DNA of 36,110 nt. Source: Nocardiopsis trehalosi NBRC 14201 (GTDB taxonomy: Bacteria; Actinomycetota; Actinomycetes; Streptosporangiales; Streptosporangiaceae). The DNA lies in NCBI RefSeq assembly GCF_001552555.1, contig NZ_BCRK01000047.1:1-36110 (forward strand). Reading direction: 5' to 3'. The position numbers were made by a program, and so were the translations under genes. The first letter of the stretch is position 1, and every line of letters begins with the position of its first letter. Positions 21,914 to 28,720 of this stretch are shown piece by piece. Below the pieces are notes generated by a model. It had not been told where the DNA came from. It ran no database searches and saw only the letters and a program-made list of their open reading frames with translations.

Positions 21914-22888
21914 CTACTCCCGGGGGAGTACGCGCGGCCGCGACCGCCTCCGCTCCCACGCGTCCGCCACCGGATCGGCCGCCATGGCGGCGACGAGCAG
22001 CACCGCCCCCGCCACCCCCGGCGCGGTCATCCGCTCGCCCAGCAGCGCCGCCGACAGCAGGGCCGCCGTCAGCGGCTCGGCGATGCTGCCCACGGCCGCC
22101 GCGGCGTCGGAGGCGCCGCGCAGCCCGGCGAAGAACAGCAGGTAGGCCAGGCCCGTCGGCACCAGGCCGAGGAACAGCAGCAGGGCCAGCGGCTCCGGGG
22201 CCACCGGGACCGCCATGCCCGCCGCCAGCCCGAACGGGGCCAGCAGCACCCCGCCGCCCAGCAGCCCCAGCCCGGCGTTGGCGACCGGGTCGAGCCCCGC
22301 CGGGGGCACCCGGTTGACCAGGGTCAGCACCGAGAACACCAGCCCCGCGCCGAGCGCGCAGGCCAGCCCGGCCGCGAGCCGGTCGGCGGGTGCGTCGGCG
22401 GCGGGGAACCCGGACAGCAGCGCCAGCCCCGCGACGGCCGGCAGCACGGCGGCGGTCAGCCGGGGGGTGGGGCGGCGGCGGGCCGCCAGGCAGATCCCGG
22501 CGGCGACGAACACCGGGACGCTGCCGATCTTGACCAGCGTCGCCAGGCCCACCGGGACCAGCGCCAGGGACGCGAAGTACAGCAGCTGGAAGACCGCGTG
22601 CAGGGCGGCGTTGACGGCGAGCCGCCGGACCACCGGCCGGGTGGGGCGGCGCAGCGCCCGCAGTCGGCCCGTGGCGGCCGCCACCGCCGCGATGAGCGCC
22701 CCGCCGACGAGCAGCCGGTAGGCGGCGACCGCCGGGGCGGACAGCCCCGCGTCGGCCTGGAGGAGGTGGCCGGCGATACCGCCGGTGCCCCACAGCACGC
22801 CGGCGGCGAGCAGCAGCGCCAGGCCGCGCCGGGCGGCGGGCGTGGCGGGGGAGGACACGGCCAAAACGGCCGAGGGAAGAGAGGACAC
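21914..22888 (-). CDS. EamA/DMT-family transporter
   Basis: A 324-residue ten-segment membrane protein made of two EamA repeats (about residues 20-150 and 165-300), the drug/metabolite transporter superfamily, which exports amino acids, related metabolites or drugs. The first helix reads LALLLAAGVLWGTGGIAGHLLQ. The second repeat contains ALGAGLVFSVLTLVNRV, and the closing helices GSIAEPLTAALLSAALLGERMT carry the conserved EP and LGE turns of the family. The GTG start has GGAG eight bases upstream. The leader contains a short open frame and two hairpins, pointing to translation-dependent control. The cargo cannot be told from sequence. Confidence 0.9.
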   Translation of the reverse strand: MSSLPSAVLAVSSPATPAARRGLALLLAAGVLWGTGGIAGHLLQADAGLSAPAVAAYRLLVGGALIAAVAAATGRLRALRRPTRPVVRRLAVNAALHAVFQLLYFASLALVPVGLATLVKIGSVPVFVAAGICLAARRRPTPRLTAAVLPAVAGLALLSGFPAADAPADRLAAGLACALGAGLVFSVLTLVNRVPPAGLDPVANAGLGLLGGGVLLAPFGLAAGMAVPVAPEPLALLLFLGLVPTGLAYLLFFAGLRGASDAAAAVGSIAEPLTAALLSAALLGERMTAPGVAGAVLLVAAMAADPVADAWERRRSRPRVLPRE

Positions 22889-22981
22889 GGTGGAGACTCC
22901 GTCGACGACGACACAGGGGACCGGATCGTCGGGACGTCAGGCGGGCGGCCGGTGCGCGGGCACGGAACGGGCGCCCGGGGC

Positions 22982-23027
22982 CACCGCGCGGACCACGCGG
23001 TGCGACGCCCCGGTCAGGACCGGGGCG
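22982..23027 (-). promoter_or_regulatory. Two tandem hairpins in the EamA leader (candidate attenuator)
   Basis: On the minus strand the first stem is CGCCCCGGT/ACCGGGGCG (23027-23019 and 23014-23006; 9 bp, 4-nt loop), overlapping the stop codon of the leader frame. The second is CACCGCG/CGCGGTG (23002-22996 and 22988-22982; 7 bp, 7-nt loop). They lie 93 bases or more upstream of the exporter start. A ribosome halted at the leader stop would block the first stem. Confidence 0.5.
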
Positions 23028-23061
23028 GGGGCGTGACGAAGAGCCGTGTCTGGTGGATCAT
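23014..23061 (-). CDS. Putative 15-residue leader peptide ending PPPRS
   Basis: ATG 23061 starts MIHQTRLFVTPPPRS and stops at TGA 23016-23014. A TACAGT -10 box ends exactly six bases before the ATG, so a transcript would start on the start codon. The three consecutive prolines just before the stop are a known kind of ribosome-stalling sequence relieved by EF-P. The stop codon lies inside a 9-bp hairpin. The EamA exporter starts 125 bases downstream on the same strand. Translation is inferred, not shown, and the frame is short enough to arise by chance. Confidence 0.4.
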   Translation of the reverse strand: MIHQTRLFVTPPPRS

Positions 23062-23067
23062 GGGACG

Positions 23068-23073
23068 ACTGTA
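23068..23073 (-). promoter_or_regulatory. -10 box of the EamA leader transcript
   Basis: TACAGT on the minus strand fits TANNNT and ends six bases before the leader ATG. It puts a leader of about 175 nt ahead of the exporter. Confidence 0.5.
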
Positions 23074-26962: not shown

Positions 26963-28720
26963 GTGCTGCTGCGGATGTCGACCCTGTTCCTGCGCACCCT
27001 GCGTGAGGACCCGGCGGACGCCGAGGTGCCGAGCCACCGGCTGATGGTGCGCGGCGGGTTCGTGCGGCGCGCCGCGCCCGGCATCTACACCTGGCTGCCG
27101 CTGGGCAAGATCGTGCTGGAGAACGTCGCCGCGGTCGTCCGCGAGGAGATGGCGCGCATCGGCGGCCAGGAGGTCCTGCTCCCGGCCCTGCTGCCCCGCG
27201 AGTACTACGAGGCCAGCAACCGGTGGACCGAGTACGGCGACAGCCTGTTCCGGCTGGTCGACCGCAAGGGCGCCGACTACCTCCTCGGCCCCACCCACGA
27301 GGAGCTGTTCACGCTGCTCGTCAAGGGCGAGTACAGCTCGTACAAGGACTTCCCGGTGATCCTGTACCAGATCCAGGAGAAGTTCCGCGACGAGGCCCGG
27401 CCCCGCGCGGGCGTGCTGCGCGGCCGCGAGTTCCACATGAAGGACTCCTACTCCTTCGACATCGACGACGAGGGCCTGGACCGGTCCTACGCGCTGCACC
27501 GCGAGGCCTACATCCGGATCTTCGACCGGCTCGGCCTGAAGTACGCCATCGTCTCCGCCATGTCCGGGTCCATGGGCGGGTCCGCCTCCGAGGAGTTCCT
27601 CGCCGAGACCCCCACCGGCGAGGACACGTTCGTCCGCAGCACCGGCTCCGACTACGCCGCCAACGTCGAGGCCGTGCGCACCCCCGCGCCGCCCGCGCTG
27701 CCCATCGACGGCCTGCCCGCCGCCCAGGTGCACCACACCCCGGACACCCCCACCATCGCCACCCTGGTCGACCACCTCAACGGCGCCGGCCTGGGCCGCA
27801 CCTTCACCGCGGCCGACACGCTGAAGAACGTCCTGGTCAAGACCCGCGCGCCCGGCGCCGACGACTGGGAGATCCTGGGCGTCGGCCTGCCCGGCGACCG
27901 CGAGGTCGACCTCAAGCGCCTGGAGGCCGTGCTCCACCCCGCCGAGGTCGCCCTGCTGGACGAGGCCGACTTCGCCGCCCACCCGTACCTCGTCAAGGGC
28001 TACGTCGGCCCCAACGCGCTGCTCGGCAACAAGCACCGCTACCTGGTCGACCCCCGCGTGGTCGAGGGCACCCGCTGGGTCACCGGCGCCGACACCCCCG
28101 ACCACCACGTCGTCGACCTGGTCTGCGGCCGCGACTTCACCCCGGACGGCACCATCGAGGCCGCCGAGGTCCGCGAGGGCGACCCCTCGCCCGACGGCAC
28201 CGGCACCCTCTACGCCGCCCGCGGCATCGAGATCGGCCACATCTTCCAGCTCGGCCGCAAGTTCGCCGACGCCTTCGAGCTGGACGCCCTCGGCCCCGAC
28301 GGCAAGCCCCGCCGGATCACCATGGGCTCCTACGGCATTGGCGTGTCCCGGGTGGTCGCCGCCATCGTGGAGCAGTCCCACGACGACAAGGGCATCGTCT
28401 GGCCGCGCGCGGTCGCCCCCGCCGACGTGCACGTGGTCGGCACCGGCAAGGGCGAGCAGATCGAGGTCGCCCTGCGGATCGCCGAGGAGCTGCGCGACCG
28501 CGGCGTCCGGGTCATCGTTGACGACCGCAAGGGCGTCTCGCCCGGCGTCAAGTTCACCGACGCCGAACTCCTCGGCGTCCCCACCGGCCTCATCGTCGGC
28601 AAGGGCCTGGCCCAGGGCGTCGTGGAGCTGCGCGACCGCGCCACCGGGGAGCGCTCGGAGATCCCGCTCGACTCCGCGGTGGACCGGGTGGCCGGGATCG
28701 TCCGCGCCGACCGCGGCTGA
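26963..28720 (+). CDS. proS: Prolyl-tRNA synthetase
   Basis: A 585-residue class II aminoacyl-tRNA synthetase that charges tRNA-Pro. It is the bacterial long form with an inserted YbaK-like editing domain (about residues 225-395), which clears mischarged Ala-tRNA-Pro. Motif 1 lies near GMxxWLPLG-like [18 protein letters not shown]. Motif 2 is [21 protein letters not shown], and motif 3 is [18 protein letters not shown]. The anticodon-binding domain is at the C-terminus ([11 protein letters not shown] to the end). GTG 26963 has GAGGAG six bases upstream. The order proS followed by the rimP-nusA-infB block is common in actinobacteria. Confidence 0.97.

Follow-up and report, generated by a model that had tools for sequence, protein, structure and literature searches.

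A candidate polyproline leader peptide that probably controls a group of EamA exporters in Actinomycetota and some other bacteria

Our analysis of a 36,110-nucleotide (nt) stretch of the Nocardiopsis trehalosi NBRC 14201 genome (contig NZ_BCRK01000047.1, positions 1 to 36,110; hereafter the window) points to a short leader frame ending in prolines that probably controls, by ribosome-mediated attenuation, the gene of an EamA exporter. The exporter gene lies on the minus strand (21914-22888) and begins with GTG behind the Shine-Dalgarno sequence GGAG (22897-22900). Its product matches EamA with an E value of 1.7e-26 (93.6 bits, the Pfam PF00892 gathering cut-off being 28.2), as an earlier note, made from the letters of the DNA alone, had proposed. 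The only NCBIfam transporter model that it resembles, TIGR00950 (carboxylate/amino acid/amine transporter), scores 79.8 bits, below its cut-off of 230.2, and a sequence search of PDB with the exporter profile gave zero matches. Upstream on the same strand, an ATG at 23061 opens a frame of 15 codons, MIHQTRLFVTPPPRS, closed by TGA at 23016-23014 (23014-23061 as a whole). It carries near its end three consecutive proline codons (Pro-Pro-Pro, PPP; 23023-23031), the proposed stall site, and six bases 5' of its ATG stands TACAGT (23068-23073), a box of the TANNNT type that would serve as the -10 box of a leaderless promoter. Box and frame are both present as that note had described them. An NCBIfam scan of three longer in-frame readings of the leader returned nothing.

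The 182-nt leader-to-exporter stretch of the window folds more stably than its shuffled versions (z = -2.5), and all elements predicted within it belong to the minus strand. The stem that the earlier note had placed over the leader stop codon was reproduced by RNA folding as a hairpin, A:B (23006-23027), with 9 bp and a loop of 4 (23027-23019 with 23014-23006), whereas the second stem ahead of the exporter (22982-23002) exists in the fold with 9 predicted bp and not the 7 announced (23002-22994 with 22990-22982). More telling is a pairing that had gone unnoticed: segment B (CGGGGCGTCG, 23003-23012), immediately 3' of the leader stop, is complementary over 10 bp (23012-23003 with 22939-22930) to segment C (TGACGTCCCG, 22930-22939), which ends 41 nt 5' of the exporter start. 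Likewise unnoticed was a predicted local hairpin at the exporter start (22900-22936), whose 5' arm overlaps C and whose 3' arm touches the first G of the Shine-Dalgarno sequence. The RNA switch envisaged in the note is thus retained in so far as the segment after the stop has two possible partners, but the key alternative partner lies about 40 nt before the exporter start and not in the second stem. At gathering scores, Rfam gave no match in the window and none at the leader in 20 loci.

Leaders were recorded by a fixed rule, which required a frame of 8-24 codons with a start codon, PP(P) close to its end and a correctly placed TANNNT box or Shine-Dalgarno sequence. The rule was applied to 99 loci of the exporter group: 10 came from a first look, 23 from a search of 250 genomes belonging to the same family, and 66 were kept of 80 loci in named genomes after removal of 14 whose genomes had already been sampled. 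The first look had covered 30 exporters from 41 genomes, of which 10 with a leader were kept (L012 by eye) and 20 left out; these 20 are more distant paralogues with no PPP frame at that stage, scored by the rule only at the end. A rule-defined leader is present at 75 of the 99 loci, compared with a mean of 0.25 and a maximum of 1 of 99 in dinucleotide-shuffled regions (20 rounds) and with 0/99 in reverse complements, and a leader is visible by eye at four further loci (L076, L119, L123, L127). The earlier note had held that absence of the frame from relatives keeping the exporter would speak against its idea; in this comparison the frame survived. Examples are MDYRTRLLATPPPRL, VHRLFPITPPPRS and VRRILFVTPPPRA in Amycolatopsis, MHRIFTVTPPPAS in Nocardia, VHRCFPITPPPRS in Plantactinospora, MHSRRLICPPPRF in Streptomyces and MTGLTLVLPPPHS in Modestobacter. 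Among the 20 omitted paralogues the rule finds a leader in one, the outlying L016, which had first been scored as lacking it. This locus carries MTYRHAISPPVAS and a box, and its B and C pair perfectly over 10 bp; the leader may therefore extend beyond the exporter group sampled. With 75/99 loci inside the group and 1/20 among the paralogues, the leader characterizes a single group of EamA exporters and is seldom found elsewhere.

The constraint on the peptide was examined in a comparison set of 99 leaders, distinct from the 99 rule loci and composed of the 75 rule loci, L076, L119, L127, L164-L167 and 17 loci from the leader scan described below. Full PPP occurs in 91 of these, in a set selected for PP, so that PP itself is no evidence. 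All four proline codons (CCC, CCG, CCT and CCA) are used at each Pro position and PPP is nonetheless retained, which points to selection on the amino acids and not on nucleotides alone. The residue preceding the prolines is T in 77 leaders, S in 10, L in 9 and C in 3, and in 78/99 the third Pro position lies two residues from the stop; the length varies from 11 to 21 codons across loci. As read from sequence comparison, the short frame is conserved at the amino-acid level together with its own promoter box or Shine-Dalgarno sequence. The box stands 6 nt from the start in 26, 7 nt in 37 and 8 nt in 5 of 75 loci, and in 7/75, among them Nocardiopsis relatives with GAGGA, there is a Shine-Dalgarno sequence alone. 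The leaderless start claimed in the note consequently agrees with the spacing of the -10 box in most loci, whereas some relatives initiate the leader by a Shine-Dalgarno sequence. In a Modestobacter group without leader (L110, L111, L114, L116, L118, L131), the exporter itself starts in frame behind a TACGCT box (6/6) and begins MTG..., the same as the leader of sister loci, MTG...; it looks as if leader and switch had been deleted and the exporter had adopted the start of the leader.

Other loci show variants of the frame. The leader of L031 and L061 (Streptomonospora mangrovi) is truncated just 5' of its stop by unrelated sequence that may have been inserted there, and segment B and the rest are kept. 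The exporter is kept and no PPP leader was found in L047, L049 and L050, where a TANNNT-like box still stands at the site, nor in the Nocardiopsis kunsanensis group (L038, L041, L063, L064, L066, L070). In L073, L080, L087 and L091 (Prauserella, Saccharomonospora), the frame continues beyond PPP with RPVRGA or a like sequence, and the usual B would consequently be translated, and that of L147 reads through the usual stop (TPPPLPSGARPSAPAAL), as the frames of its relatives do not. The leader of L107, a record titled Rhodococcus rhodnii, is VHRMFPITPPPAA, of the type found in Kibdelosporangium relatives, and the record may be mislabelled or contaminated.

The association with EamA was also recovered starting from the leader. 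A model based on sequence only (R2), comprising the leader and the bases 3' of it and trained on 30 sequences from such loci including the window, was used to scan 345 genomes of the class. All of its 21 best matches (E up to 4.8e-5, window included) stand upstream of an EamA gene; among the next nine loci (E 1e-4 to 1.3e-3), EamA is downstream in one only, L163. Another model, R1, was built after dropping L005, L008, L012, L015, L037, L045, L051 and L053, and alignment A2 was misaligned for some rows.

Outside Actinomycetota, orthologues of the exporter have leaders such as MYYPFSSILPPPVAIHA in Geomonas, MYYPAFSILPPPPAISA in a Geobacter metagenome-assembled genome (MAG), MPRTRFSILPPPAARSH in Kouleothrix (Chloroflexota) and MALKGVLPPPSHFPLSS in a Bacillota MAG. 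Within the class of one cyanobacterium, 4/145 genomes contain an orthologue (E up to 1e-50, query genome included), and all four show a PP(P) frame when read by eye. In a test on new loci of the Geomonas class, an ATG frame with PPP precedes 17/18 exporters (0.4 expected from shuffles, maximum 2), the remaining one, L207, having no PPP frame. Among 21 new Chloroflexota exporters, two have PPP with ATG (0.15 expected), and L176 and L189 have PPP behind GTG. A search of the phylum around the Geobacter MAG matched 1/148 genomes, the MAG itself. Such uneven results indicate that the spread of the leader outside Actinomycetota is patchy. L208-L212 represent a further leader class, of the TPPPVPS type and with a different B (for example CGAGGAAGG); in L209, L211 and L212 a matching C lies near the usual place. 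On a tree of 94 exporter sequences, made by a quick method that left 29/91 inner branches open and from which 25 near-copies and the short row L084 had been dropped, the leader label needs 11 changes, as opposed to 27.1 with shuffled labels. The 17 rows outside the leader-bearing groups were all labelled as having none, wrongly so for L016, whose leader adds one more change. A single old gain followed by many losses and a gain with transfer are both possible histories.

Like the frame, the complementarity of B and C is conserved among these loci, and it lies at a fixed place. The distance from leader stop to exporter start ranges from 57 to 340 nt; one locus with a gap under 60 was dropped, leaving 98 loci, and for other measures two with gaps under 69, leaving 97. 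B was taken as the stretch 3' of the leader stop (including the stop codon in 21 newer loci). Its best complement lies 33-50 nt 5' of the exporter start in 87/98 loci, compared with 20.4 (standard deviation 3.6) in shuffled gaps and 36.0 (standard deviation 4.1) with scrambled B, and its duplex energy passes p 0.05 against the locus' own dinucleotide shuffles in 37% of the 98 loci, six control segments doing so in 3-16%. The longest B:C helix has on average 8.31 bp, versus 6.54 in shuffles, with two control segments at chance (n = 97); it reaches at least 7 bp in 86/97 loci, in 73 distinct helices. Compensatory changes are seen in GCGAGGTGC with GCACCTCGT (Nocardia) and CCGGAGCGC with GCGCTCCGG (Modestobacter) and, outside Actinomycetota, in GGCAGGACG with CGTCCTGCC (a cyanobacterium) and CAAGGCAG with CTGCCTTG (Geomonas). 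When partners were swapped between species with unlike B (35 loci), the own pairing had -15.4 kcal/mol, that with another C -11.7 and that with another B -13.8, although the own pairing beat 95% of both kinds of swap in 7/35 loci only. The 21 newer loci behave alike: the longest helix averages 8.8 bp versus 7.4 in shuffles and is better in 17/21, and C ends 39-45 nt 5' of the exporter start in 15/21.

The region of the exporter start is itself structured. Its fold has -22.2 kcal/mol versus -19.2 in shuffles, being more stable in 81/97 loci, and C overlaps the 5' arm of the start-region pairing in 74/97 loci, where 54.4 would be expected. Two cyanobacterial hairpins (L165, L167) end in six U just 5' of the ATG, resembling intrinsic terminators, whereas in the actinobacterial loci folded the tract after the start hairpin is U-rich at most; attenuation may act on transcription or on translation.

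Divergent from the exporter and about 4 kb from it, the window contains on the plus strand a gene for prolyl-tRNA synthetase, proS (26975-28720), which we mention as context and whose role in the switch is putative. It was identified from its translation and from 66% identity over 583 amino acids to L132:112-1851, a protein with the class II aminoacyl-tRNA synthetase core, the editing insert and the anticodon domain, and it is the sole full-length prolyl-tRNA synthetase match in the N. trehalosi genome. Apart from the N. trehalosi genome, 22 genomes of its family were compared: in 12 of them proS and the exporter are 2.1-3.9 kb apart on one contig, in 4 the distance is 8.6-11.5 kb, in 5 the two genes are on separate contigs, and G016 has no proS match. 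In another family (f21, presumably that of Phytoactinopolyspora), proS is on the same strand and upstream of the leader in 14/17 measured loci, the distance being 10 nt in L140 and L144 and between 87 and 1359 nt in the other 12; of the three loci whose stretch lacks proS, two carry the gene farther upstream (L136 at 1.6 kb, L138 at 2.2 kb), and L145 belongs to yet another family. Since synteny inside a lineage amounts to one event, this proximity counts as two hints and not many; found in two lineages and in different orientations, it is circumstantial evidence in favour of a proline-decoding signal. No shared partner emerged from Pfam scans of 20 neighbour proteins from 13 loci; proS was indicated only by the upstream gene at L132. 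The next gene is opposite in 8 of the 12 loci (among 14) whose exporter was resolved by crude calling of open reading frames, so that the exporter often stands alone. In addition, we noted at L108:5008-5106, L119:1778-1865 and L121:2216-2311 cyclic di-GMP-I riboswitches a few kb from the exporter (Geobacter, Geomonas) and a small signal recognition particle RNA gene, on the opposite strand, just 5' of a Modestobacter leader.

Polyproline runs are known to stall ribosomes, a stall that elongation factor P (EF-P) relieves. The comparison of loci shows a conserved frame with PPP, a promoter box at leaderless spacing, an association with EamA and B:C complementarity at a fixed place, and the predicted A:B and B:C pairings are mutually exclusive, as is typical of leader-peptide attenuators. 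Leader and B:C pairing probably form a ribosome-mediated attenuator: a ribosome stalled at PPP would switch on the exporter, and impaired decoding of proline would be the signal. Transcription would start at or beside the leader ATG, and 11-21 codons would be read, ending in T/S/L/C-Pro-Pro-Pro and a few residues. If the ribosome passes the prolines and leaves, A, formed by the codons before the stop, would pair with B, and C, left free, would fold with the Shine-Dalgarno region of the exporter (D) and keep expression low. As B follows directly on the stop and PPP mostly precedes the stop by two or three codons, a ribosome halted on the prolines would cover A and free B for C; the B:C pairing would then open the base of the exporter-start hairpin, allowing translation or, where that hairpin doubles as a terminator, read-through. 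The signal might be scarce or mischarged tRNA-Pro or a shortage of EF-P, and the exporter may expel an amino-acid-like compound that interferes with the use of proline. Translation of the leader, the stall, its direction (stall meaning on) and the signal are the parts of this scheme that we infer.

Several observations weigh against such an attenuator. The rule finds no leader in 24/99 loci (including the four with one by eye) and none in 19 of the 20 omitted paralogues. Among the 21 new Chloroflexota exporters a loose rule finds some PP frame in 7, versus 4.8 in shuffles, and this phylum was given up as strong support. proS and the exporter occupy different contigs in G323 and in the genomes of two Streptomyces, two Geobacter-type bacteria and one cyanobacterium, and G569 yielded no proS match; in draft genomes the two genes may still be neighbours across contig ends. 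In the window, the lowest-energy gapped duplex of B lies nearer the second stem and not at C; over 97 loci, the A:B helix exceeds shuffles only modestly (mean longest 6.79 versus 6.18 bp), as does the C:D pairing, and an unusually hidden Shine-Dalgarno sequence had to be rejected, since it is paired in 91/97 loci versus 91.6 expected from shuffles. Equilibrium folding of 99 loci (the exporter start of L166 having been set by hand) predicts a mean probability of 0.22 that the Shine-Dalgarno sequence is unpaired with a free leader, 0.27 with the ribosome stalled, 0.25 when it has reached the stop and again 0.25 when it is stalled and B is scrambled. The stalled state differs from the free one with p = 0.003, from the stop state with p = 0.044 and from scrambled B with p = 0.41, p values that are generous because the loci are related. 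The modelling thus gives no clear switch, and the opening of the Shine-Dalgarno sequence by a stall is not clearly supported. Finally, a cell short of charged tRNA-Pro would gain nothing by exporting proline itself, which means that the exporter must carry another compound. AexA, an EamA amino-acid exporter of Bacillus of the 'sleeping beauty' type, remains silent unless a toxic amino acid is present (PMC11005379), which suggests as cargo an amino-acid-like compound disturbing proline.

Other explanations of the same features can be compared on this evidence. The stall might be caused by an antibiotic at the peptidyl transferase centre or in the exit tunnel, as for erm, msrD and vmlR, the exporter being a drug pump. 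The invariant part of the leader is, however, Pro-Pro, which is established to stall ribosomes without any drug, and the residues ahead of it differ between phyla. Although the architecture is the same, and short Streptomyces leaders ahead of resistance genes are induced in this manner (PMC12421871), an EamA relative with known cargo, AexA, moves amino acids (PMC11005379), and we consider a drug sensor unlikely. Since EamA proteins can export amino acids (PMC11005379) and folding does not settle the direction, the polarity could also be the opposite, with plentiful proline and fast reading of PPP switching on the expulsion of excess proline or a related amino acid. The position of B just past a ribosome that has halted at PPP (third position and stop being separated by two residues in 78/99) and that of C over the 5' arm of the start hairpin in 74/97 loci (54.4 expected) fit a stall that activates, which makes this inverse arrangement rather improbable.

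Two further explanations would dispense with the peptide. C-rich codons might be kept merely for pairing with the GGGG that follows the stop, and the Pro codons and those after them can indeed pair with B at many actinobacterial loci; but every Pro position uses all four Pro codons, and PP(P) is retained in the Geomonas class and in cyanobacteria despite a different B sequence, so that a constraint on nucleotides only is highly improbable. We give the least credence to B and C being half-sites of a repressor's DNA operator beside an incidental leader: they do form inverted repeats ahead of a gene, yet the distance between leader stop and exporter start varies from 57 to 340 nt, the repeat sequence co-varies with its partner between species, and B keeps its place at the leader stop.

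Beyond the attenuator itself, we put forward more tentatively, as a possibility that may well prove wrong, that it is an old, partly mobile sensor of failing proline decoding. Its PPP leader would act in cis to wake a silent EamA exporter against proline antagonists (analogues, inhibitors of Pro-tRNA synthetase), and it would have been kept with the exporter in Actinomycetota, cyanobacteria, the Geomonas class and a few Chloroflexota, near proS in two actinobacterial lineages. EamA exporters are very common and, to our knowledge, their inducers are mostly unknown. A leader kept across phyla would directly reveal the class of inducer of such an exporter, and it would provide a ready reporter for failing proline decoding, be it by EF-P limitation, proline analogues or inhibition of Pro-tRNA synthetase.

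As a mechanism, attenuation of this class is known. The erm and msrD leaders act by the same stall-and-release attenuation, induced by drugs. In resistance-gene attenuators of the are5 type, likewise, stalling of the ribosome on the leader releases a segment, which in turn opens the gene that follows (PMC12421871). In erm, msrD and are5 the stalls are drug-induced, whereas the constant element of the present leader is Pro-Pro-Pro beside the stop codon. Arrest peptides of the RAPP type share a C-terminal Pro-Pro arrest upstream of regulated genes, also in Streptomyces (PMC12992588); the peptide described here has, by comparison, 11-21 residues in all, and the RAPP paper, searched for EamA, exporter and efflux, gave no mention of them. 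Closest among the cases described is mgtP, the second leader frame of Salmonella mgtCBR, whose Pro codons respond to low charged tRNA-Pro: it too is a short frame rich in Pro codons before a membrane-protein operon, with transcription raised at predicted low charged tRNA-Pro and a requirement for the conserved Pro codons (PMC3641672). It differs in belonging to an operon for Mg2+ transport and virulence and in having a long leader region with two frames (PMC3641672). AexA, in turn, is switched by a transcription factor (PMC11005379), whereas the present switch is apparently in cis and based on translation.

Within Actinobacteria, the attenuators trpL, leuL, ilvL, thrL, alaL and metL likewise combine short leader peptides with alternative hairpins, often without a U-tract (PMC8079986, PMC1262725), and most of the leader peptides described in PMC8079986 are leaderless. 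They stand, by contrast, ahead of genes for biosynthesis, aminoacyl-tRNA synthetases or import and carry the cognate amino acid in the leader (PMC8079986, PMC1262725). The available parts of these two papers contain no proline attenuator and none before an exporter, and in that of PMC1262725 the words 'proline' and 'transporter' occur 0 times. Our literature searches, conducted mostly without subscription papers, retrieved no report of a polyproline leader before an EamA exporter, and searches with the leader peptide strings gave no relevant paper. The PPP leader also reaches other phyla, unlike the amino-acid attenuators described for Actinobacteria. It would thus extend the leaderless attenuators of this group by one of the polyproline type and, as far as we could see, a polyproline leader tied to one group of exporters in several phyla is new.

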